Below, one piece after another: positions 2,608-20,906 of a stretch of 20,906 nucleotides of DNA (the stretch's first letter is position 1; each line of letters opens with the position of its first letter). This DNA comes from a virus. The notes beneath the pieces were generated by a model. That model saw only the letters and a program-made list of their open reading frames with translations, was not told where the DNA came from and made no database searches. The translations under genes and the position numbers were made by a program. The stretch spans positions 1 through 20,906 of the IMG/VR virus record IMGVR_UViG_3300047546_002568. One strand, written 5' to 3'.

Positions 2608-3063
2608 ATGAAAATAAGATGCCAGACATTGTTTGATATAACTCAAACACCTTATAGCAACCGACGGGGGATGCTAGAGGCAGAACCCGATCAGGACGCA
2701 GTTAAACAACGCATGCAACAGGCTAACTTTGAAACCATACTACAAATCATCAGTATGCGTAGTCAGCCTGAAAATATCTCTAGTCCCACAGTGGTGCCTA
2801 CAAAACTGGGCCCAGAAAGTCCCTGGGGCAACGCATATCGCAGCAAAAAAGCCATTCCCAGCTGGCAGTTTGAATTTACTGTTAACTATAAACAGGTGTT
2901 TGCACAGAATGACCAGAAATTGGGTGCTTTGCTACAAGATTGCCGCGGTGTGCCCATGATCAAGGATCTGGGTGAATGGCCCTTGATAGAAACCACACTG
3001 AACACTAGCCCAGAATTACGAAACATTGTATTTGAGATAGTAGATGAACAAACACAGTTTTGA
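2608..3063 (+). CDS. Conserved T4-like phage protein, function unknown
   Basis: A 151-residue soluble protein. ATG 2608 is preceded by AAGG (2599-2602). It opens MKIRCQTLFDITQT, followed by QQANFETILQIISMRSQPEN, and a middle section with aromatic, beta-like segments (SWQFEFTVNYKQVF) and LGALLQDCRGVPMI. I recognise this pattern from hypothetical proteins of aquatic T4-like phages, where it occurs beside the next gene. No signal peptide, membrane segment or catalytic motif is visible. Its end overlaps the following gene by 20 bases, so translation is probably coupled. A structural or assembly role is possible but not shown. Confidence 0.8.
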   Translation: MKIRCQTLFDITQTPYSNRRGMLEAEPDQDAVKQRMQQANFETILQIISMRSQPENISSPTVVPTKLGPESPWGNAYRSKKAIPSWQFEFTVNYKQVFAQNDQKLGALLQDCRGVPMIKDLGEWPLIETTLNTSPELRNIVFEIVDEQTQF

Positions 3064-3541
3064 GCGATTGGAAGCTTTGGCTGGCCAGGCCATCAACGAC
3101 CTGATGCGAAACCTTATATATGAGGATGAGGGAGTGTATGTGATGTACGAGCAGTACTACATAACCCAACAACCGGGCTATTATGGAGTGTATCGCTACC
3201 GTGATGATACCCAACGCAGCTTTAACCGTTTGAGAAACGCTGCCGCCTGGTGCACCCTGGACTACTATGGCAAACTGTATGAGTCCAATCGGGTGATATA
3301 TCTGGATCAGAAGCTGGAGAGCCTAGAAATAGACAAAGCCATACATGCCCGCCAAAAAGGCAAATCTGATGTAGACTTGCGCAGCATAGCCATGGTCAAG
3401 CATCAGCACGACATGTACAACCAAAAGATATTTCGCGGCGAATTAGATAAATACATTATCATGGCCAAACAGTGCCAACAACGAGGATTTGAAAATGAAC
3501 TTACAAGAACTGCAAGAAAACAAAAAGAGCAAGCTGGTTAA
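3044..3541 (+). CDS. Conserved T4-like phage protein, function unknown
   Basis: A 165-residue protein starting at ATG 3044, inside the end of the previous gene. The N-terminal half is Tyr-rich (YITQQPGYYGVYRYRDD). The second half is strongly helical and charged: NRLRNAAAWCTLDYYGKLYE, then a long stretch with alternating acidic and basic residues typical of coiled coil (about residues 90-150). It overlaps the next gene by 47 bases, which includes that gene's ribosome-binding site and a late promoter box. I recognise the AAAWC...YG pattern from T4-like phage hypothetical proteins. I considered a UvsY-type recombination mediator because of the helical, charged character, but there is no convincing sequence match. 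Confidence 0.78.
   Translation: MNKHSFERLEALAGQAINDLMRNLIYEDEGVYVMYEQYYITQQPGYYGVYRYRDDTQRSFNRLRNAAAWCTLDYYGKLYESNRVIYLDQKLESLEIDKAIHARQKGKSDVDLRSIAMVKHQHDMYNQKIFRGELDKYIIMAKQCQQRGFENELTRTARKQKEQAG
3446..3453 (+). promoter_or_regulatory. Candidate T4-type late promoter box GATAAATA inside a gene
   Basis: GATAAATAC lies within the 3' part of the preceding gene, 41 bases before the ATG at 3495. The 16 bases from 3448 (TAAATACATTATCATG) match those at 1786 (TAAATACACTACCATG) at 14 positions. It would serve the gene at 3495, whose SD (AGGA) is downstream of it. Confidence 0.45.
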
Positions 3542-4196
3542 GCGTGCTTTAAAAGAACACTATAGCATGGATCTAAATCTAGAGCGCATTGACATGGTGA
3601 ATGCCAAGCGCATGCTGGGTCGTGTTCGCGGCCTGTTAAAAGAATCACGTGCTGGCCGTAGCATACATAACAGTCATCAGGATCCTGGCTATATCAAGCT
3701 GGTCATGATGGAACAGGCCTTAAGCGACCATTTGAATGACCTGCGTGAGCATGCTCGTATCATGCTGGAAAACGAAGAAGTTCAAAAGAGTCAAGTGATT
3801 TTGGCTGCCCAGGACATGATTGACACCATGCAGAAAATGATTGAGCAAATCAGTAAAATGAATGCTGAAGAATTGCCTGCAGTTGTTGATGGAGTGCAGA
3901 ATGAGTTTGGTGTACAAGAGAGTGAGCAGTTCAATAGTAGTGTCAGTGAGACACTGACTACCCTTCAGGCCGCCATCACCCAGGCCAAGGGCTCACTGAC
4001 CAGCGCGCTGAACGGCATCACTGGCGCCGGCGGCCCTGAAGCTGACATGGGTATGGGCATGGCCCCGCCCGCTCCTGGCGAAGAAGAAGTTGAGGTTGAT
4101 GCAGAAGTAGGCGGTGAAATGCCCGAACTGCCAGAACTTCCAGAACCCGACGAAGAACCCGAAGATTTGGGTGGTGCTGGCCGCGAGACCAGATAA
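3495..4196 (+). CDS. Scaffold-like acidic-tail protein of T4-like phages, function unknown
   Basis: A 233-residue protein. The ATG at 3495 is preferred over the in-frame TTG at 3489 because AGGA (3483-3486) lies 8 bases upstream of the ATG. Residues 1-60 are basic and helical and include RMLGRVRGLLKESRAGRS; residues 60-130 form a helical, Met/Glu-rich stretch; residues 150-175 are Ser/Thr/Ala-rich; the last 50 residues are Gly, Pro, Met and very acidic (EEEVEVDAEVGGEMPELPE). This two-part design, helical body plus disordered acidic tail, resembles scaffold or DNA-mimic proteins, and similar proteins occur in aquatic T4-like phages. No enzyme motif is seen. It overlaps the next gene by one base (TAATG). 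Confidence 0.78.
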   Translation: MNLQELQENKKSKLVKRALKEHYSMDLNLERIDMVNAKRMLGRVRGLLKESRAGRSIHNSHQDPGYIKLVMMEQALSDHLNDLREHARIMLENEEVQKSQVILAAQDMIDTMQKMIEQISKMNAEELPAVVDGVQNEFGVQESEQFNSSVSETLTTLQAAITQAKGSLTSALNGITGAGGPEADMGMGMAPPAPGEEEVEVDAEVGGEMPELPELPEPDEEPEDLGGAGRETR

Positions 4197-9978: not shown

Positions 9979-10098
9979 ATGAGAACTTACCGATTCAGAG
10001 CCTTGTGTGCCAGTGGCGAATGGCAAGATTTTGAGTGCGAAGCCGAAAACTTCGCAGCGGCACGTGTGCTGTTGGATGAGTTTATCCGGAACAATTGA
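9979..10098 (+). CDS. 39-residue conserved-looking small protein
   Basis: A complete 39-residue frame with a good ribosome-binding site (AAGGA at 9969-9973, 5 bases before ATG) and a late promoter box just upstream. The sequence starts MRTYRFRALCASGEWQDFEC and continues EAENFAAARVLLDEFIRNN: a short beta hairpin followed by one helix, a compact plan seen in small proteins of T4-like phages. It fills an otherwise empty gap between two genes and ends 9 bases before the Dps-like gene. Function unknown. Confidence 0.7.
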   Translation: MRTYRFRALCASGEWQDFECEAENFAAARVLLDEFIRNN

Positions 10099-10107
10099 AA
10101 GTAAAAA

Positions 10108-10551
10108 ATGCTAGCAGATACCCTAAAAACCCTACTGGCCACCAGTTATGCCTTTGTGATCAAGGCACAGAACTTTCACTGGAATGTTGAAGGCCCCAAT
10201 TTCCCTCAATATCATGAATTTCTGGGCAACTTGTACAACGAAGTGTATGATAATGCAATTGACCAGACCGCAGAGTTGATACGCCAACTGGACAGTTATA
10301 CACCCGGTAGCATTGCCCGATTTGCTGAACTGAGCCAGATACCTGACCAGACCAAGATACCTCGTGCCGAACTCATGATGGCCGAACTGTCACAAGACAA
10401 TGCCCGATTGTTAGAAATGTGGAAGGCAGCATTCCCCATAGCCGAACAGGCCAACGAGCAGGGTATTGCTGATTTTATTGCCGGGCGCATTGATGCTCAT
10501 GGCAAGCATCAGTGGATGCTGCGCAGCATACTGAAAAAGGAACGGGCATGA
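10108..10551 (+). CDS. Dps-like ferritin-fold protein
   Basis: A 147-residue member of the Dps/ferritin-like group. Dps proteins form 12-subunit shells, bind DNA or iron, and oxidise Fe(II) with peroxide. The family signature NFHWNVEGPNF followed by QYHEF is clear, with H24 and H36 at the Dps spacing of 12, then D52 and E56 at positions matching the later ferroxidase ligands of E. coli Dps (D78, E82) if one residue is inserted. The Asp expected four residues after the second His is G40/N41 here, so metal binding may be altered. The TAELIRQLDSYTPGS and GKHQWMLRS stretches are typical of the phage group. It lies in a late-type cluster of mosaic proteins, so virion association is possible. Its stop overlaps the next start (ATGA). 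Confidence 0.88.
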   Translation: MLADTLKTLLATSYAFVIKAQNFHWNVEGPNFPQYHEFLGNLYNEVYDNAIDQTAELIRQLDSYTPGSIARFAELSQIPDQTKIPRAELMMAELSQDNARLLEMWKAAFPIAEQANEQGIADFIAGRIDAHGKHQWMLRSILKKERA

Positions 10552-11042
10552 AAATCACTGAACTACTGAACGAGAGTCAGCAAGGTGTGGCGGAAGATTC
10601 TATAAACGAAGTATCTAGTGCCTACTTGCAACGAGCACAGTCTGCTGCCCGTGATAAGTACAACCTGGCCGCTGCTCCGGATAATAATTTACCCGACAGT
10701 GAAGCACAAGCACTGATGCGATTTTATGGTGAAAAAGAAAAGAAGTTTGGTGCCGGGGCAAAAGCAAAACAAGAGCAAGAGGCCCGGGCCAGAGCATTGA
10801 AGAAAATCAACCCTTCAGCAGCCGCCATGAGAAAAGCTGGAATAGCAGAAGAGCCACTGGCAGAACTCAGCCCCAAAACATTGGCCAGCTACAAGAAGAA
10901 AGCCGGAGCACAAGCCAGTGAATTAGACAAACGGGCTTTCCACAAAGACACTGATCCTGAGCAGGCCAAACAAGACATTGCCAAAGCCAACAAGCGTTTC
11001 AGCGGCATAGTCCGTGCCACTAAGAAGGAATTTGGCAAGTGA
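10548..11042 (+). CDS. Lys/Ala-rich mosaic protein with MKITELLNES leader and GVAED
   Basis: A 164-residue basic protein. ATG 10548 (ATGA overlap with the Dps-like gene) is preferred over an in-frame ATG at 10512, inside that gene. It opens MKITELLNESQQGVAED, which joins the leader type seen on neighbouring proteins to the repeated GVAE motif. The middle is Ala/Lys/Glu-rich and probably disordered or helical (GAGAKAKQEQEARARALKK). After GIAEEPLAE begins a C-terminal module, LSPKTLASYKKKAGAQASEL, ending AKANKRFSGIVRATKKEFGK, which I recognise as a recurring short module of aquatic T4-like phages. Cleavage after VAE, IAE or LAE would release it. Role unknown; a packaged DNA-binding peptide is an inference. 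Confidence 0.72.
   Translation: MKITELLNESQQGVAEDSINEVSSAYLQRAQSAARDKYNLAAAPDNNLPDSEAQALMRFYGEKEKKFGAGAKAKQEQEARARALKKINPSAAAMRKAGIAEEPLAELSPKTLASYKKKAGAQASELDKRAFHKDTDPEQAKQDIAKANKRFSGIVRATKKEFGK
10584..10597 (+). repeat. Dispersed 14-bp coding repeat, copy 4
   Basis: GGTGTGGCGGAAGA, one base from copies 1 and 2, in frame as Gly-Val-Ala-Glu-Asp, 10 residues after the start of its gene. Confidence 0.82.
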
Positions 11043-11443
11043 AAATCCGTGAACTACTTCAGGAATTTGCCATTGCGCCCGGCGGAGATGGCGACGATGA
11101 GCCAGACGAAGAAATACTACGCAGATTAGCCGCACAATGGTGGAATGGCACAGCGCAAGAAATGTATAAAGCTGAAAAAACTCTAGCTGCTATGGGCTGG
11201 GAAATAGGTGAAGATGAGGGCTATGATCAAGGCGGTGTATTTGTTATTCGTGCAGGTGATGAACACGGTAAAAGTTATATTAGTTGGCCACACGAAGAAC
11301 TGCTAGACATTCAAGAAGCTCAACCACCTGGTCGCTATTTGACCGGCAAAGAAAAGGTCAAAAACATCAGCCCAGTCCTGACCCGACCCTATGGAAAGGC
11401 CAAGCAAACCACACTGATGAAAAATTTCTTTGGGAGTAGTTGA
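11039..11443 (+). CDS. Small acidic protein with MKIRELLQEF leader, function unknown
   Basis: A 134-residue protein starting with GTG 11039, which overlaps the upstream TGA (GTGA); no ATG alternative keeps the leader. It opens MKIRELLQEFAIAPGG, followed by an acidic linker (DGDDEPDEE). The core, LRRLAAQWWNGTAQEM, then KTLAAMGWEIGEDEGYDQGG and VFVIRAGDEHGKSYISWP, reads as a small alpha/beta domain and is a pattern I recognise from other aquatic T4-like phages. The last 30 residues are basic. No catalytic motif is evident. It ends in a TGATG overlap with the next gene. Confidence 0.73.
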   Translation: MKIRELLQEFAIAPGGDGDDEPDEEILRRLAAQWWNGTAQEMYKAEKTLAAMGWEIGEDEGYDQGGVFVIRAGDEHGKSYISWPHEELLDIQEAQPPGRYLTGKEKVKNISPVLTRPYGKAKQTTLMKNFFGSS

Positions 11444-11859
11444 TGCGACACTGGCAAGAATATGTACGAGCCAGTTATGAAGTTATCATGGTGGCCGAAG
11501 AACGCAGCAACATAAACCTGGAACACGAGGTTGAAGCGTTTGTGGTACATACGTTTGCTCGTTACATGGAACAGCCTAACATACCCACCGATGCCATTGC
11601 CATAAAAATGATGACAGCCACCAGTGCCAAAGGCGACAACCGTAAGCGTCAGTTTGAGCAAATAGCCGAAGAATGCCTATTGATAGATGGACTGGAACTA
11701 AACAGCCGTCGCTGGCCCAGCCGTAAATACTTCCGTGACATGGGACGGTTAGCACTAGAACATCGTGCCTGGACTGACCGACCGCCTGAATTGTTTTATG
11801 AACGAGTTGCTGGGCAATTTGACCAGTTGAGTACTGTATTACATAGTGTGAGAATATGA
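11443..11859 (+). CDS. Helical protein of unknown function
   Basis: A 138-residue soluble, mainly helical protein. ATG 11443 overlaps the upstream TGA and is preferred over TTG 11440. The sequence includes RHWQEYVRASYEVIMVAEE at the start, VEAFVVHTFARYMEQPNI, EECLLIDGLELNSRRWPSRK and LALEHRAWTDRPPELFYERV. The pattern of conserved aromatic and charged residues suggests a real folded family, and similar proteins seem to occur in other aquatic T4-like phages, but I know no function and see no metal-binding or nucleotide-binding motif. It ends in an ATGA overlap with the GIY-YIG gene. Confidence 0.7.
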   Translation: MRHWQEYVRASYEVIMVAEERSNINLEHEVEAFVVHTFARYMEQPNIPTDAIAIKMMTATSAKGDNRKRQFEQIAEECLLIDGLELNSRRWPSRKYFRDMGRLALEHRAWTDRPPELFYERVAGQFDQLSTVLHSVRI

Positions 11860-12450
11860 GAATAAACGAAATAGCATTAGGGCGCAGTGTACGCTATCCA
11901 TTCTTTAGCATCTTTGATGTAGTACAGCAGAAGGTACCTGGTCAACCGGGCCTCAAGATCCGTTTTCAGCGCCGCGGCAAACTACCACCAGAAGTAATGC
12001 AAAGTGGCATCTATGCCTGGCATCACCCTGACTGGGGCTATTTCTATGTGGGCATTGCCAGCAAGAACAACTTCCGTGAACGTTGGTACAAGCATATACA
12101 GAAACTTCTAGACCAGTGTACCTCTGCTGCACAAATGCGCAACTGGAAACAGTTTGCTGACCGTTTTGCTGCTGCAGGTTACGGCATGGACGACCTGAAG
12201 GACATTACCCTGAGATTCTTCCCCATACCACCAGACCTGGGCGATGATCCAGAAACATTCAAACGCAAGCTGGGTGCTATAGAGGACCGTATCGTGGCTG
12301 CACTGAATCCGGCCTGCAACTATCAACACGATCCCACGAGACCTAGTAGTACAAAATACCCACAACCCAGAACAACACCGAACTCGCCTTAGGACCGAGT
12401 GGGCGGCTGCTGCCCGTGTGACTGGACTCGCTACCCAGAAGCCCAAGTGA
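11856..12450 (+). CDS. GIY-YIG endonuclease-domain protein; C-terminal tail continues after an apparent +1 frameshift
   Basis: A GIY-YIG nuclease-fold protein, which would cut DNA with one metal ion. In-frame, it ends at TAG 12390-12392 (178 residues). Motifs: G51-I52-Y53, Y64-V65-G66, the catalytic-type arginine in NNFRERWYKH (R74 or R76), and a C-terminal glutamate E143 in AIEDRIVAALNPACN, so the active site looks complete. It opens MRINEIALGRS, like nearby leaders. The last in-frame residues after about 167 look unlike coding sequence, whereas the +1 frame reads RTEWAAAARVTGLATQ and ends at TGA 12448-12450. A shift at CCC 12366-12368 (skip one base) joins both into about 197 residues and removes a gap before the next gene. 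Sequencing error, mutation or programmed shift are all possible. Repair, restriction of competitors or homing are possible roles. Confidence 0.78.
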
Positions 12451-12452
12451 GC

Positions 12453-12460
12453 ACTAAATA
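12453..12460 (+). promoter_or_regulatory. Possible late promoter box ACTAAATA
   Basis: ACTAAATAC lies 5 bases before ATG 12466 with no Shine-Dalgarno sequence between. It matches TATAAATA at six of eight bases and shares the trailing C and TATCATG-like sequence with the boxes at 1784 and 3446. Transcription would begin at about the ATG. Confidence 0.35.
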
Positions 12461-12465
12461 CTATC

Positions 12466-12948
12466 ATGCGATTATCTGATTTTGAATTTCACGACACGAC
12501 CCGACTGGACCAGATGCTGGAAAAACTAATGGCCATGATTGTGCATGGGCAAGAACTGGACAGCAATTATTGTGGTTTAGTGGCCGCTTGTATTATTGAT
12601 AATAACAATCGTGTTGCATGTGGTCTCAGCCATTATGGACCTGATGGACGCAGGAGGCATGCTGAACGTGTGGCTCTTGACAGATATCGTGAGCGTTGGG
12701 GAGATCCAGAATCTGGCAGCATATGTGTGACCACACTAAGTCCCTGTACCAGTCATATACGTGATAGATATGCTGAAAGTTGCAAAGACCTCATAAACCA
12801 AACACAAATACGCAAAGTATACTGTGGGTATCTGGATCCCACACAACAGGATTTGACTGGTAAAACTTTTAGTTTGCGTGAAACACGCAATCCAGATATC
12901 CGTGCCACTTGCAAGATTATTGCACACCAGTTTTTAGGTAAAATTTAA
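12466..12948 (+). CDS. Cytidine/RibD-like deaminase family protein
   Basis: A 160-residue zinc deaminase of the cytidine deaminase superfamily. The zinc and proton-shuttle motif H65-A66-E67 (RRHAERVAL) and the second zinc element LSPC (C94) with a later C106 are clear. The C-x11-C spacing is longer than in dCMP deaminases (PC-x2-C) and nearer to RibD-type enzymes (PC-x8-C), and the later KVYCGYLDPTQQDLTGK recalls the RibD 'DPNP' region. Substrate is unknown: a free nucleotide, a pterin or pyrimidine intermediate, or a base. It opens MRLSDFEFHD, like the leaders of the preceding cluster, so it may be packaged or may be an intracellular enzyme for nucleotide modification. It stands alone between a late-type box and the dsbA-like promoter. 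Confidence 0.82.
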   Translation: MRLSDFEFHDTTRLDQMLEKLMAMIVHGQELDSNYCGLVAACIIDNNNRVACGLSHYGPDGRRRHAERVALDRYRERWGDPESGSICVTTLSPCTSHIRDRYAESCKDLINQTQIRKVYCGYLDPTQQDLTGKTFSLRETRNPDIRATCKIIAHQFLGKI

Positions 12949-12985
12949 TCACGTAAAAACCCTTGACATTCTGCGTAAACGTGAT
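12948..12985 (+). promoter_or_regulatory. Inverted repeat ATCACGT...ACGTGAT spanning the promoter
   Basis: A 7-bp inverted repeat with arms at 12948-12954 and 12979-12985 encloses the -35 box and reaches the -10 box of the next promoter. The same ATCACG/CGTGAT arms occur as a compact hairpin before the clamp gene (16376-16392). A protein operator is possible. Confidence 0.4.
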
Positions 12986-12990
12986 AGACT
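12963..12990 (+). promoter_or_regulatory. Sigma70-like promoter, TTGACA-16-TAGACT with extended -10
   Basis: TTGACA (12963-12968) is exact; after 16 bases lies TAGACT (12985-12990), four of six to consensus, preceded by TGA, giving an extended -10. It would start transcription near 12997, leaving a 26-base leader with AAGGAA (13013-13018) before ATG 13023. Confidence 0.65.
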
Positions 12991-13022
12991 AAGTATCTAT
13001 TCACTTATATACAAGGAACAAC

Positions 13023-13298
13023 ATGTCAGATAATTTTGATACACCAGTCACATTCAGTGGTGACCAAAAAATCAAACTCACGCAACTGATCAACGAAGGC
13101 ATGCAGGTCATGCACGAGATTGATACCCTGAACGAAGGTCTAAATGATACCATCAAGGCCATTGCCGAAGAACTGAACGTCAAGAGCAGTGTGCTCAAGA
13201 AGGCCATTCGTGTGGCACATAAAGCTGAGTTTGGGAAAACTCAAAAAGAACAAGAACTGCTGGAAACCATCCTCACAACTGTGGGCAAAACTCTTTGA
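13023..13298 (+). CDS. dsbA: DsbA-like double-stranded DNA-binding protein (T4 type)
   Basis: A 91-residue helical protein. Its core, LNEGLNDTIKAIAEELNVKS followed by SVLKKAIRVAHKAEF, aligns by eye with T4 DsbA (YNELIKDIRIRAKDELGVDG, then a basic helix with a His-Lys pair). T4 DsbA binds double-stranded DNA near late promoters and modestly regulates late transcription; it is not the thiol oxidoreductase of the same name. Length is nearly equal to T4's 89 residues. ATG 13023 has AAGGAA 4 bases upstream and its own sigma70-like promoter, so it may be made early. Its stop codon overlaps the next gene's TTG start. Identity rests on short similarity and on the position before the polymerase. Confidence 0.72.
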   Translation: MSDNFDTPVTFSGDQKIKLTQLINEGMQVMHEIDTLNEGLNDTIKAIAEELNVKSSVLKKAIRVAHKAEFGKTQKEQELLETILTTVGKTL

Positions 13299-13585
13299 CC
13301 AGATTAGTGCGTGGAATCATAAACTGGATACAGGAGGACTGGCGTTCACATCCAGTACGATGTGTGCTGGAAATCTTGGCCTGGTTCATGAGCATCGGGT
13401 GTAGTTTCACCATGATGTTGACCCTGCCTAACCCACCATTTATAATACTGTATCCACTGTTTATGACACAGTGTGCCATCTTTGCCTGGGCGGCCTGGAC
13501 ACGCCAGAGTTCGGGCATGCTGGCCAACTACCTACTGTTAGTAACCATTGACAGTGTGGCACTAATCAGATTGTTTACCCTATGA
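13295..13585 (+). CDS. Small integral membrane protein, three predicted TM segments
   Basis: A 96-residue inner-membrane protein. The start is TTG 13295 (TTGA overlap with the upstream stop) or GTG 13307; no ATG is available upstream of the conserved part. Predicted membrane segments: about residues 22-44 (VLEILAWFMSIGCSFTMMLT), 48-68 (PFIILYPLFMTQCAIFAWAA) and 75-95 (MLANYLLLVTIDSVALIRLF). The first 20 residues are amphipathic and include NWIQEDWRSHP. The short positively charged loop WTRQSS lies between TM2 and TM3. A protein of this type directly before the polymerase gene is familiar from aquatic T4-like phages, but its role is unknown; membrane tethering, lysis timing or superinfection exclusion are guesses. 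It ends in an ATGA overlap with gp43. Confidence 0.8.
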   Translation: MTRLVRGIINWIQEDWRSHPVRCVLEILAWFMSIGCSFTMMLTLPNPPFIILYPLFMTQCAIFAWAAWTRQSSGMLANYLLLVTIDSVALIRLFTL

Positions 13586-17165: not shown

Positions 17166-17536
17166 TTCGCAGCATCACAACAGGTCCAGGCCTGACAGTT
17201 TCGGGTGGTAGTCCACCTACCACCTATATCAACAACTACAGTGGTATGCCTGGCGTGGGCAACATGCGCTACAACCCCAGTAGTAATAATATTGAGGTGT
17301 TTGATGGCATGAACTGGCAGGCCATGCAATCTTCATATGCCAGCATTGATCTGGATGCTGAAACACGCAGTTTGCTGGACTGGGCCCGTGCCCGCCGAAA
17401 CCGCGAATATGAAATGGAACGCCTGGCACGAGATTACCCTGCTCTGGCAGATGCCAAGGCTGCAGTGGATCAGGCACAAGAACAACTGGAAGTATTGGCC
17501 GCACTGGCCCGTGATGACAAACTAAATGCAAGATAA
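17162..17536 (+). CDS. Small structural-type protein, function unknown
   Basis: A 124-residue protein in an ATGA overlap with the clamp gene. Residues 1-55 are of fibre or baseplate type: TTGPGLTVSGGSPPTTYINN, then GNMRYNPSSNNIEVFDGMNW, a short beta motif often found in phage fibre proteins (RYN...EVYDG.W). Residues 60-124 are helical and charged (ETRSLLDWARARRNREYEME) and could form a coiled coil, perhaps for oligomer formation. I recognise the combination from other aquatic T4-like phages. It is unusual to find a virion-type protein between the clamp and a DNA-modifying enzyme gene; it may be a passenger. It overlaps the next gene by 11 bases. Confidence 0.75.
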   Translation: MIRSITTGPGLTVSGGSPPTTYINNYSGMPGVGNMRYNPSSNNIEVFDGMNWQAMQSSYASIDLDAETRSLLDWARARRNREYEMERLARDYPALADAKAAVDQAQEQLEVLAALARDDKLNAR

Positions 17537-19037
17537 TCTATCAGCCAAGCATGACCCTGAATGGGCCATGTTCCTGCCAGCCATCAGTAGTTTCTATATC
17601 AGTGGTCTGGGACAGCAACGATGTGGTCAACAGTATTTTGATCCGCAACGCATGCCCAAACAGATTCAAGACACTGAAATGCTGAACTTTCTGAACAGTC
17701 AAAAGGGCTTGTACACTTACAAGTGGGGCCTTTATTCTGCTGGTCACGCCGATCTGGACACCTCTAAAGTAAATCCACAAGAAGACCTGATTCGCAATCG
17801 TGAAGCCGGCACATTCTTGCTGGGCGATAGTGGTGGATTCCAGATCAGTATGGGTGTCTGGCCCGCCAACTGGAGTGATCCCAACTGTCCCCTGGCCATG
17901 AAGAAGCGCCAGCAGGTGTTAAACTGGATGGACACCTACATGGACTATGGCATGGTTCTGGATATTCCCACCACCACTCTGGGACGTCCAGAGGTCATGA
18001 AAAAGGTGGGCATCAACAGCTACCAGGATGCTGTTCGTGCCACCCAGATCAACAATGATTACTTTATTAACAATAGAACTGGTCGTTGTAAGTTCCTGAA
18101 TGTGTTGCAGGGCACCACTCATGAAGAGGCCGAAACCTGGTACCAGACCATGAAGGACTATTGTGATCCACGGAAATATCCTGGTCGCAACTTCAATGGC
18201 TGGGCTGCTGGTGGTCGCAACAAACTGGATGTGAAAATGATCCTGACCCGTTTGGTCACTATCATTCATGATGGACTTCTGGAACCAGAGCAGCACGACT
18301 GGATTCACTATCTGGGCATCAGCTGGATGGAGTATGCCCTGCTTTATACTGATATTCAGCGAGCCATTCGCAAGTACCATAATCCCCGCTTGACCATCAG
18401 CTTTGACTGCGCCAGTCCATTTTATGCTGCTGCCAAAGGTCAGGCATACCATACCAATCGCATTGAGCATGGTAAAAAGTGGAGTTATAAAATGGATGCT
18501 ACTGCTGAAAACAAGGCATTTGCTGGTGATACTCGCCCATTTGCCCAGGCTGTCCTGCAGGAAGGCGTCCATAAACAGTTTACAAGTAGTCCCATCACTG
18601 ATAGAATGACCTTAGGTGACTTATGCTATCGTGGTGTAGGTGCACTGGGCAAGCATGGTAAAGAAACTAAAACCAGTTGGGATACTTTGAGTTATGTGTT
18701 GTTACAAGGACACAATGTCTGGATGCATATCAATGCAGTACAAGAGGCCAATCGCAAGTATCAACAAGGTGTGATTCCCAGCATGCTTATGGAAGAACGA
18801 TTCAGTCGTGTGTTTGTGCGTGATGTGATTGATGCAGTGTTTGCTGCAAAAAACAAACAGCGCAGCCTGGAGATCATCAACGAGCATGACTGGCTCTGGA
18901 CCAAGTTCTACAAAAACCTTGATACTAAAGCAGCCTTTAATAGTTTGTTTGAAGTAGTAGAATCCACCACGGATGATGTTGCAGACACTGAAGAACTGGA
19001 TGCAGATGCAGCCATGGTGGCCAACCTAGGAGAATGA
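17526..19037 (+). CDS. dpdA: tRNA-guanine transglycosylase-like protein, probable DpdA (DNA 7-deazaguanine insertion)
   Basis: A 503-residue enzyme of the TGT superfamily. TGTs swap guanine for a 7-deazaguanine by forming a covalent link to the nucleic acid; DpdA members act on DNA. Conserved elements matching Z. mobilis TGT: GDSGGFQ (D101; D102-Q107 there), MVLDIPTT (D146; D156 there), NVLQG (Q195), WAAGG (G229-G230) and FDCASP with D294 at the place of the nucleophile Asp280. The TGT zinc site (C-x-C-x2-C...H) is not seen, and about 120 residues extend beyond the usual core, both unlike queuosine tRNA TGT. In a phage, beside a QueD-fold gene and a glycosyltransferase, the DNA role is more likely. 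ATG 17526 overlaps the upstream gene by 11 bases; ATG 17568 is an alternative start. Confidence 0.85.
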   Translation: MQDNLSAKHDPEWAMFLPAISSFYISGLGQQRCGQQYFDPQRMPKQIQDTEMLNFLNSQKGLYTYKWGLYSAGHADLDTSKVNPQEDLIRNREAGTFLLGDSGGFQISMGVWPANWSDPNCPLAMKKRQQVLNWMDTYMDYGMVLDIPTTTLGRPEVMKKVGINSYQDAVRATQINNDYFINNRTGRCKFLNVLQGTTHEEAETWYQTMKDYCDPRKYPGRNFNGWAAGGRNKLDVKMILTRLVTIIHDGLLEPEQHDWIHYLGISWMEYALLYTDIQRAIRKYHNPRLTISFDCASPFYAAAKGQAYHTNRIEHGKKWSYKMDATAENKAFAGDTRPFAQAVLQEGVHKQFTSSPITDRMTLGDLCYRGVGALGKHGKETKTSWDTLSYVLLQGHNVWMHINAVQEANRKYQQGVIPSMLMEERFSRVFVRDVIDAVFAAKNKQRSLEIINEHDWLWTKFYKNLDTKAAFNSLFEVVESTTDDVADTEELDADAAMVANLGE

Positions 19038-19038
19038 A

Positions 19039-19242
19039 ATGGATTATAGTGACCGTATTCGTGAATTGGAAGCAAAGCACCGCGAACTAGATACCAACAT
19101 TGCAGTCATGGAAATGGGCTTTGCTGATGCCATGCTGCTGAACGAAATGAAGAAACAAAAGTTAGCTTACCGTGACGAACTCAGCCAGTTGCGCAAGCTT
19201 CAGTATGAAGAAAGCCAGCGTGTGGGGTATGGAGACGAATGA
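19039..19242 (+). CDS. DUF465/YdcH-like small coiled-coil protein
   Basis: A 67-residue helical protein. The pattern RIRELEAKHRELDTNIAVME followed by LLNEMKKQKLAYRDELSQLR matches the DUF465 (YdcH) plan: two helices that pack as a hairpin, with the L-K-K-x-K-L-x-x-x-D-E motif. TAGGAGAA (19027-19034) gives it a strong ribosome-binding site just after the DpdA-like stop codon. Members are common in alpha-proteobacteria and in some phages, with no settled function. Its place between two deazaguanine-type genes could make it a small partner, but a link is not shown. It overlaps the next start by four bases. Confidence 0.72.
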   Translation: MDYSDRIRELEAKHRELDTNIAVMEMGFADAMLLNEMKKQKLAYRDELSQLRKLQYEESQRVGYGDE

Positions 19243-19697
19243 TGCAACAAGAACAAGCACAGGCTGAAAAGCGCCAGCGAATTAGTGATCGTGCACGCCG
19301 CATGATCTGGGTGACTTTCCGTCGGGAAGGCATTCACAGGTACCCAGCAGCACAGGATGACCCTGCTCTGGCAACCGGAGACCAGTATGACGTATCGTTT
19401 TTGGCCTATCCTCATAGGCATATTTTTCATTTCACTGTGGCCATTCAGGTATGGCATAACGACAGAGATGTGGAATTCATTCAATTCAAGCGATGGCTTG
19501 AAGGACTGTATTCTGGCGCACAAGGTGTTTTGTCGCTAGATTACAAAAGCTGCGAAATGATTAGCGATGATTTATATGAACAAATCGCTAGTCGTTACCC
19601 AGACCGTGACATTGAAATCACCGTCAGTGAAGATGGTGAGAACGGTGCCACGATTCATTATAAAACTCATCAACCCATTCAACAACTAGCCATCTAA
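19239..19697 (+). CDS. QueD/6-pyruvoyl-tetrahydropterin synthase-fold protein, catalytic triad altered
   Basis: A 152-residue T-fold protein (M1 at ATG 19239; the ATG at 19242 is equally good behind GGAG 19231-19234). QueD makes 6-carboxy-tetrahydropterin in the 7-deazaguanine pathway. Features: GIHRYPAA (H33) and PHRHIFHFTV (H59, H61) supply the three zinc histidines; DRDVEFIQFKRWLEGLY matches the family's 'DFxxLK' stretch; SCEMISDDLYEQI matches the C-terminal 'PTxENxxxxI' helix; VSEDGENGA gives the pterin-binding Glu (E131). However, the catalytic Cys four residues before the HxH is L55, and the Asp-His pair is D101-Y102. So zinc and pterin or purine binding look kept but the standard chemistry may not be. 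I recognise it from other T4-like phages, where it is often unnamed. Confidence 0.75.
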   Translation: MMQQEQAQAEKRQRISDRARRMIWVTFRREGIHRYPAAQDDPALATGDQYDVSFLAYPHRHIFHFTVAIQVWHNDRDVEFIQFKRWLEGLYSGAQGVLSLDYKSCEMISDDLYEQIASRYPDRDIEITVSEDGENGATIHYKTHQPIQQLAI

Positions 19698-19707
19698 GGA
19701 GCAACAA

Positions 19708-19938
19708 ATGGCACGACAACAACATCAACCTAACCCCCGCGTCCGTCAAATTTTTGATGACCTGGAACGGTATCTGGCCTTCTGCCAGGACTATGGATAC
19801 AAATTTGACGAGAGCACACTGTATGACATGCGTAACTACGCCTGGCAACAGTACACCAAGTGCGTGGGCAACAAAAACTTCAAGGACCAGTGGGCTGATG
19901 ATGCTCGCAAGATGAACAATGTGGTAACATTTGACTGA
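19708..19938 (+). CDS. Small conserved T4-like phage protein, function unknown
   Basis: A 76-residue soluble protein with an excellent ribosome-binding site (AAGGAG at 19697-19702 overlapping the upstream stop). The sequence MARQQHQPNPRVRQIFDDLE, then YLAFCQDYGYKFDESTLYDM and NYAWQQY, suggests a small helical domain with conserved aromatics. I recognise similar proteins from aquatic T4-like phages, where they are hypothetical. There is no catalytic motif. It lies one base before the glycosyltransferase start and so shares its transcript. Confidence 0.75.
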   Translation: MARQQHQPNPRVRQIFDDLERYLAFCQDYGYKFDESTLYDMRNYAWQQYTKCVGNKNFKDQWADDARKMNNVVTFD

Positions 19939-19939
19939 C

Positions 19940-20906
19940 ATGAACAGCATATTCATTGTGCCCATTGAGCCCATTGATCAGCGATATACTGCTCAATGGT
20001 ATGTGAACATTCCTGCCACCATCAGGCAGCAGGTGCGTGATCAGGGCTTGCCCTTTGCAGTGATCACAGTAGATGGGCAGAGTGTGCCTGATGGTACTAC
20101 ACAGGGTGCCTTTCTGGACTTTGCAGCCACCAACGCCTACAAGGCCAGTCAGGTGCAGGCCATCAGTGAATTGTTCATGATTGGTCGTGTGCAACCAGGT
20201 GACAGGTTTCTGGTCACAGATGCCTGGAATTTTGCCATCACTGCCATCCGTTACATGAGCGACCTGCTGGAGATTCCAGTGGAGATTCATGGCATCTGGC
20301 ATGCTGGCGCCTATGATCCCAGTGATATTCTGGGTATGCGCATGAGCAAGCCCTGGCCCTGGGTACAGGAGCAGGCCTGGTTCATGGCCCTGGATTACAG
20401 CTACTTTGCCACTGACTTTCATCTGGACATGTTTGCCTACAACCTGGGCATTGACAAGTCACAGTGGGGGCATAGGCTGATTCGCAGCGGTCAACCACAT
20501 GACCAGATTGTGGCTCCACTTGAGAGCTATCAACAGGTGGTCAAGGACCGCCAGGTGATCTGGCCTCATCGGTACAACGATGACAAGCAGCCGGTTATTG
20601 CTGAGGATCTGGCACAGACCTTTGACATGATCATCACACAAAAGATGAATCTGAGCAAGGCTGATTATTATGCTACTCTGGGTCGCACACAGGTGATCTT
20701 CAGTTGTGCCTTGCATGAAAATCTGGGCATCAGTGTCATGGAAGGTTGCCTGGCTGGTGCAATTCCAGTGGTACCAGACCGCTGTAGTTATGCTGAAATG
20801 TATCTGCCAGAGTTCAAGTATCCCAGCAAGTGGACTCAGAACTACGCCATGTTTGAAACGCATCGTGAGGAACTGGTGGCGTTCATTCGTGAGCGTCTGG
20901 ACAATC
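19940..20906 (+). CDS. GT-B glycosyltransferase, 3' end cut by window
   Basis: An open frame of 322 codons from ATG 19940 to the window edge with no stop. The C-terminal half has GT-B hallmarks: VIWPHRYNDDKQP around residue 210-225 (the 'PHR..EKxP' strand), then ATLGRTQVIFSCALHENLG and an E-x7-E pair, E260 and E268, followed by GCLAGAIPVVPDRCSYAEMY, which binds the nucleotide sugar in GT4-type enzymes. The N-terminal half (MNSIFIVPIEPIDQRYTAQW, GDRFLVTDAW, PVEIHGIWHAGAYDPSD) is an acceptor-binding domain of a type I recognise from aquatic T4-like phages. In T4, GT-B enzymes glucosylate hydroxymethylcytosine in DNA; here a modified base, virion protein or host surface are possible acceptors. 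The DNA idea rests on neighbours only. Confidence 0.85.
   Translation, partial: MNSIFIVPIEPIDQRYTAQWYVNIPATIRQQVRDQGLPFAVITVDGQSVPDGTTQGAFLDFAATNAYKASQVQAISELFMIGRVQPGDRFLVTDAWNFAITAIRYMSDLLEIPVEIHGIWHAGAYDPSDILGMRMSKPWPWVQEQAWFMALDYSYFATDFHLDMFAYNLGIDKSQWGHRLIRSGQPHDQIVAPLESYQQVVKDRQVIWPHRYNDDKQPVIAEDLAQTFDMIITQKMNLSKADYYATLGRTQVIFSCALHENLGISVMEGCLAGAIPVVPDRCSYAEMYLPEFKYPSKWTQNYAMFETHREELVAFIRERLDN

Follow-up and report, generated by a model that had tools for sequence, protein, structure and literature searches.

A Phage Gene Cassette Predicted to Modify DNA with a 7-Deazaguanine Base and, Possibly, to Glycosylate It

A Five-Gene Run at the End of a Phage Contig

The IMG/VR virus record IMGVR_UViG_3300047546_002568 (20,906 nucleotides; hereafter the window, i.e., the whole 20.9-kb stretch that was analysed) is, as its remaining genes indicate, a piece of a T4-like phage genome. 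According to its open reading frame (ORF) listing, five ORFs form a tight run on the plus strand between positions 17526 and 20906, including those for a DpdA-like transglycosylase, a QueD-like protein (QDL), and a glycosyltransferase (GT). We propose that they belong to a phage DNA-modification operon, by which a 7-deazaguanine base would be put into DNA, processed with the help of QDL, and then glycosylated; taken as a whole, this reading is probable. That the cassette directs a 7-deazaguanine modification of DNA is very likely; that this base is then glycosylated, a step for which the evidence is one of association, is somewhat probable. The cassette itself is real, widespread, and unannotated: in the Pseudomonas phages Paride and PA5oct and in the Acidovorax phage ACP17, the DpdA, GT, and QDL proteins are all annotated as hypothetical. 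The folds, the catalytic residues, the gene order, the pathway partners in relatives, and the mutual exclusion of QueC and QDL/GT described below were all obtained by computation.

The DpdA-like Transglycosylase

The transglycosylase retrieved no match from Pfam or NCBIfam and no meaningful one from the PDB sequences; for this reason, structure and gene neighbourhood were used. An AlphaFold2 model was built from 16 aligned relatives (predicted local distance difference test, pLDDT, 77.5; predicted template modelling score, pTM, 0.81), and among the structural matches listed, all were tRNA-guanine transglycosylases (TGTs), with a VIA-align Z of 17.8 over 317 residues at 5.4 Å and a Foldseek value of 1.5e-6. 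The first-pass annotation, made from the letters alone, had recognised a TGT homologue with D294 as the nucleophile and D101 kept, and had proposed a comparison of the predicted structure with TGT; the fold agrees, and the two residues are as it described. No substitution of D101 (in LGDSGGFQ) or of D294 (in SFDCASP) occurs in an alignment of ten divergent sequences, even in the relatives from Paride, Phosso, and Vibrio phage 2.275.O, which share 28–35% identity.

The same fold is common to the TGTs that act on tRNA, and glycosylated queuosine occurs in vertebrate tRNA; the transglycosylase and the GT might thus modify host or phage tRNA, giving products like queuosine and its mannosyl and galactosyl derivatives. 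We regard this as extremely improbable. The identity to tRNA TGTs in the structure alignment is 13–16%, and neither CxCxxC nor CxxC was found in the window protein or in six related or DpdA2-type phage proteins; the absence of the CxCxxC zinc motif, together with the pathway context, led us to reject a tRNA-guanine transglycosylase. Moreover, neither QueC nor QueF accompanies the cassette, and the phage would therefore make no preQ0 or preQ1. Finally, when the profile of the window DpdA was compared with that of a second phage family, which includes the DpdA2 of phage nt-1 and is reported to act on DNA, hhalign returned a probability of 95% (E 2.8e-8). The founding DpdA2 is YP_008125322 of phage nt-1 (PMC6884629), and its family belongs to phages in which dPreQ0 and dPreQ1 have been measured (PMC12028318, PMC6884629).

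In a tblastn search at E 1e-5 with the window DpdA, the only phages matched were the PA5oct group, Phosso, and 2.275.O. We call the window protein DpdA-like, and it would represent a separate sequence group without a named member known to us. The earlier assignment to the DpdA type agrees with the TGT fold, the missing tRNA-type zinc motif, and the presence of FolE, QueD, and QueE in the gene run of the relatives.

DpdA-like genes of approximately 24–34% identity were also observed in bacterial genomes (Limnohabitans, Polynucleobacter, Sphingomonas; loci L151–L166, e.g., L154 at 10001–11392), with no FolE, QueD, QueE, QDL, or GT nearby. The L154 gene lies between integrase-like ORFs, in a region resembling a mobile island.

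Gene Neighbourhood in Related Loci

With the window transglycosylase alone, 80 viral contigs were retrieved, and genes were counted only where the downstream sequence was sufficient. The gene order of the window recurs in these relatives and is then followed by FolE, QueD, and QueE. QDL was found in 52/54 contigs, the GT in 40/41, FolE in all 37, and QueD in 33/34, while QueE lies within 9.9 kb in 21 of 33. Since this order recurs in dozens of contigs, the cassette is not a chance arrangement. The pattern extends to five contigs deposited with bacterial or archaeal genomes, whose DpdA is 36–59% identical to that of the window.

Distant cultured phages show it too, in different gene orders. The order is DpdA-GT-QDL-...-QueE in Paride and QDL-GT-...-FolE-...-QueE in Phosso, where DpdA is located elsewhere. 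In three others, the GT and QDL are paired with a DpdA of the nt-1 type (DpdA2, the second family): the order is QueD-FolE-...-DpdA2-GT-QDL-QueE in ACP17, FolE-...-GT-DpdA2-QDL-QueE in X1, and QueE-phosphoribosyltransferase-...-QueD-FolE-GT-DpdA2-QDL-GT in BUCT-ZZ01. These data support well the DpdA-based 7-deazaguanine cassette that the first-pass annotation had proposed; of the pathway genes that it suggested looking for, FolE and QueE, like QueD, are missing from the window itself and present in the relatives, and QueC was not found in the six complete QDL-positive records listed below.

Two further genes recur within such cassettes (L100 at 11742–13332, L101 at 11957–12589, L094 at 3435–3905, and others): one encodes a phosphoribosyltransferase (Pribosyltran), and the other, present in several of the contigs, a Vut_1 transporter of the YhhQ type.

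QDL, a PTPS-Fold Paralogue of QueD

QDL belongs to phrog_17812, a PHROGs family of unknown function (E 3.7e-33). Its profile gave only chance matches against the PDB sequences, and its fold was recognised because the structure search succeeded where the sequence search had not: the model (pLDDT 91.6) has the 6-pyruvoyl-tetrahydropterin synthase (PTPS) fold, with a Z of 13.2 to a PTPS and of 12.2 to E. coli QueD. The alignment of 34 sequences revealed that H33, H59, H61, S104, C105, E106, and E131 are invariant; the three histidines correspond to the zinc triad, and SCE106 and E131 line up in hhalign with GCE and Glu residues that phage QueD conserves. In place of the catalytic Cys, which lies four residues ahead of the HxH/HxY motif, QDL has Leu55, and it lacks the Asp-His (DH) motif; the phage QueD family encoded nearby retains both features. 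Furthermore, a separate QueD lies a few kilobases from QDL in the relatives. For these two reasons QDL is read as a paralogue of QueD rather than QueD itself, and it is predicted to be a zinc-binding protein of the PTPS fold. Of the earlier description as a QueD/PTPS-fold protein, the fold thus stands and the QueD identity does not.

We propose that QDL is a putative enzyme processing 7-carboxy-7-deazaguanine (CDG), and decarboxylation to 7-deazaguanine is judged the likeliest reaction. A 7-carboxy-7-deazaguanine decarboxylase named DpdL was reportedly described by Cui et al. in 2023. In this respect, Cellulophaga phage phiST harbors QueD, QueE, FolE, and a homologue of QDL (34%, E 2e-9), and no QueC; this gene content fits the role of a CDG decarboxylase, and the possible equivalence of QDL and DpdL is to be taken as a lead and not as a result.

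In Vibrio phage Bakedbeans (L092, 7227–8378), QDL forms the C-terminal part of a 383-residue protein encoded beside FolE, possibly as the outcome of a fusion.

The Glycosyltransferase

When probed alone, the window GT matches Glycos_transf_1 weakly (E 0.21); the same domain is matched by 15 of the 25 members of its family, with a best value of 8e-12. R214 and K219, the R...K residues for the nucleotide-sugar, and the EX7E pair E263/E271 (motif 263–271) are invariant in the 25 sequences. On the basis of these motifs and family matches, the last ORF is a predicted GT4-like glycosyltransferase of the GT-B type, in agreement with the class named by the first-pass annotation. The sequence shares 40% identity with that of Phosso, 35% with that of Paride, and 32% with that of ACP17 among cultured phages. 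Two homologous but divergent types, GTa and GTb (approximately 20% identical), occupy the same slot. The window, Paride, Phosso, ACP17, and X1 have GTa, as do 45 contigs retrieved with the window GT; the contigs retrieved with DpdA and BUCT-ZZ01 have GTb. In the contigs whose GT is closest to that of the window, the FolE gene often starts no more than about 20 bases past the GT stop.

Scans of the viral records with the ACP17 GT retrieved only ACP17 itself, and those with the Paride transglycosylase retrieved nothing; thus, no new contigs were obtained from either. The glycosyltransferase of Xanthomonas phage PhiXhv-12 (24%) is not a member of the family, as it has a glucosamine-gene neighbourhood with no DpdA or QDL; the “QueC” match in this phage is an annotated glucosamine-fructose aminotransferase.

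A second GT4-like glycosyltransferase follows QueE in L016 (18103–20267) and L069 (19104–21265), as well as in L011, L013, L028, L045, L048, L051, L053, L055, and L078. In several contigs, it is followed in turn by a protein resembling a GDP-mannose dehydratase/epimerase, a possible second sugar or sugar-nucleotide step.

QueC versus QDL and GT

QDL is present and QueC absent in the complete records of Paride, Phosso, ACP17, BUCT-ZZ01, phiST, and RHph_I1_18. Conversely, all the records with a clear QueC lack both QDL and the GT, Vibrio phage 2.275.O and nt-1 among them, and this was seen in two DpdA families. The closest case is that of two contigs, L021 and L022, whose DpdA is 61% identical to that of the window and sister to it in the tree: both carry QueC and no QDL, and L022, whose sequence extends far enough downstream, has no GT either. 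A weak QueC-like match in X1 (16 bits) fell under the cut-off; so did the matches to the QueF profile in several contigs (about 17 bits), which seem to lie on FolE, a protein of the same fold.

Since the switch between QueC and QDL occurs in both DpdA families, QDL and the GT are suggested to act on the CDG branch; in addition, QDL is present in every GTa or GTb locus for which both flanks are covered by sequence, and several QDL phages have no neighbouring GT, so that the GT seems to depend on QDL. In terms of gene content, QDL and the GT appear as markers of a branch that starts from CDG and does without QueC, and the absence of QueC points to this branch and not to preQ0 or archaeosine.

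The sister-lineage loci of the QueC type span 8265–12835 in L021 and 196–8887 in L022. In the latter, the place of QDL and the GT is taken by QueC (2896–3684), another ORF, and an ORF at 1743–2366 that looks, by eye, like a methyltransferase, which suggests a preQ0-type base, perhaps methylated, for these two loci.

Proposed Pathway and Alternatives

In the pathway that we propose, we infer DNA as the target, the reaction of QDL, the acceptor atom, and the sugar; the FolE, QueD, and QueE steps are based on known pathway chemistry and on the gene content of the relatives, and the DpdA step on fold and residues. FolE, QueD, and QueE, which in the relatives lie downstream, past the point where the window contig ends, would convert GTP to CDG. 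Because of the lack of QueC, CDG would not be converted to preQ0; instead, QDL would act on it, most likely by decarboxylation to 7-deazaguanine. The DpdA-like enzyme would then swap guanine in DNA for the base, with D294 as the nucleophile and D101 as the acid/base, and the GT4 enzyme would move a sugar from a nucleotide-sugar onto the inserted base. The product may protect the DNA of the phage against restriction and other defences of this kind. In its most specific form, that is, a glycosylated 7-deazaguanine made through the QueC-independent CDG branch, possibly as a C7 C-glycoside or a carboxylate ester and with a second sugar in some relatives, the proposal has about an even chance of being correct. 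The second glycosyltransferase and the epimerase/dehydratase following QueE in some relatives favour sugar chemistry.

Several points weigh against this scheme. No FolE, QueD, or QueE was found within the window, because it ends inside the GT; the neighbourhood counts are not independent, since the contigs are related to one another; and the record of the QDL-positive locus L131 contains two borderline QueC-profile matches. Furthermore, GT4 enzymes usually act on lipids, on polysaccharides and other glycans, or on proteins, and QDL and the pathway occur with no neighbouring GT in phiST, Bakedbeans, Ahp1, and MA9V-3. The last two points speak for an alternative in which DpdA, QDL, FolE, QueD, and QueE give an unglycosylated base in DNA (for example, 7-deazaguanine or CDG) and the GT acts elsewhere, its target being, for instance, a structural protein of the phage or the O-antigen of the host. 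We consider this rather unlikely, as the GT keeps its place beside DpdA, QDL, and FolE in T4-like phages, a cyanophage, the Paride group, ACP17, and X1 (in Phosso, its neighbours are QDL and FolE), and it does so with two DpdA families; moreover, it is missing where QueC replaces QDL, and it often overlaps, or sits within approximately 20 bases of, a pathway gene. The sugar decoration raised by the first-pass annotation is, because the GT beside the cassette is recurrent, a fair inference: the neighbouring gene is real, and its product may act on DNA.

A further difficulty concerns the acceptor. If QDL decarboxylates CDG, the resulting 7-deazaguanine offers no ordinary oxygen acceptor for the GT; therefore, either C7 or N2 would be used, or the carboxylate of CDG would persist for esterification. 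The latter possibility brings in another role for QDL, as a different catalyst or helper (for example, a second QueD or a carboxylate-derivatising enzyme), with the GT linking the sugar to the carboxylate of CDG as a glycosyl ester or amide. The PTPS fold, the zinc triad, and the substrate-pocket positions that QDL keeps are compatible with this role, the carboxylate would supply the GT with an oxygen acceptor, and carboxymethylcytosine is a known case of a carboxyl group serving as the handle for hypermodification of DNA (PMC12783734). Nevertheless, QDL lacks the Cys/His pair of QueD and coexists with a true QueD, and we deem this role very unlikely.

Comparison with Known Systems

The cassettes of the nt-1/KVP40 type, in which the DpdA2 transglycosylase stands beside FolE, QueD, and QueE in T4-like phages (PMC6884629, PMC12028318), are among the nearest in kind. 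Their family is the one tied to the window DpdA by hhalign, and ACP17, X1, and BUCT-ZZ01 carry a DpdA2 of this type with the GT and QDL; in contrast, in nt-1 itself, QueC adjoins DpdA2 and neither QDL nor the GT is present, and the window DpdA falls in a separate sequence group. The transglycosylase of Vibrio phage 2.275.O shares the sequence group of the window DpdA (E 4e-20), but it is encoded beside QueF-like, YhhQ, QueC, amidotransferase, and FolE genes, i.e., on the QueC/QueF branch, with no QDL and no GT. phiST resembles the cassette in its QueD, QueE, FolE, and QDL genes and in its lack of QueC, and differs in having no GT.

As regards the sugar, the α- and β-glucosyltransferases of T4 are phage enzymes decorating a modified base of the phage's own DNA; the base, however, is 5-hydroxymethylcytosine, whereas the window GT is GT4-like with an EX7E motif, and no hydroxymethylase was seen in the window. 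The mannosyl- and galactosyltransferases of queuosine tRNA offer a precedent for the glycosylation of a 7-deazaguanine nucleoside, but they are eukaryotic, work on tRNA, and act on the cyclopentenediol of queuosine, which the cassette does not make. Where sugars are known on phage DNA, they are carried by hydroxymethylated pyrimidines, and the 7-deazaguanines known to us in DNA carry small groups. The literature searched contained no report of a glycosylated 7-deazaguanine in DNA; as it did not cover key work of 2023–2024, absence is not established.

If the proposal is true, a sugar on 7-deazaguanine would join both strategies on guanine. It would hide phage DNA from bacterial defences by a new kind of chemistry, confront restriction and anti-modification enzymes with a new substrate, and add an unusual glycosyl acceptor; guanine hypermodification, in turn, would be spread across several unrelated phage groups. 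The prediction can be tested on the cultured phages Paride, PA5oct, and ACP17.

Organization of the Locus and Other Genes of the Window

The ORFs of the run are listed in Table 1. The three genes described by the first-pass annotation on one strand are borne out by the ORFs, folds, and family matches; its gene list had omitted the two small ORFs.

Table 1. Features of the cassette at the 3' end of the window (aa, amino acids; AF2, AlphaFold2).
Feature	Positions	Strand	Basis
Putative DpdA-like DNA guanine transglycosylase, TGT fold, 503 aa	17526..19037	+	ORF, AF2 model, invariant residues
DUF465 small protein, 67 aa	19039..19242	+	Pfam DUF465, E 6.8e-10
QDL, QueD-like PTPS-fold protein, 152 aa	19239..19697	+	phrog_17812, model, alignments, hhalign to QueD
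S76, small conserved ORF, 76 aa	19708..19938	+	Kept in the loci of relatives
Predicted GT4-type (GT-B) retaining glycosyltransferase, type GTa, 325-aa ORF	19931..20906, open at 3' end	+	Family alignment

The junctions between consecutive ORFs are, in order, a 1-base gap, a 4-base overlap, a 10-base gap, and an overlap. The GT ORF opens at a TTG (19931), and the start of its relatives corresponds, in the family alignment, to the ATG at 19940; this ATG is the likely start, in which case the last junction would be a 1-base gap. Approximately 30–35 C-terminal residues of the GT are lost at the contig end. The window DNA gave no megablast match to phage records.

The DUF465 protein lies directly downstream of DpdA in 27 of the 66 loci with enough sequence, that is, in only part of the family. 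S76 was found in all 51 loci with enough downstream sequence, L021 and L022 included; it is the most constant neighbour and occurs in both the QueC and the QDL/GT versions of the locus.

Elsewhere in the window, a protein similar to a cytidine/dCMP deaminase is encoded at 12466–12948 (phrog_174, with a weak E of 0.012), and the ORF at 10108–10551 has, by eye only, the look of a Dps/ferritin-like DNA-protection protein.

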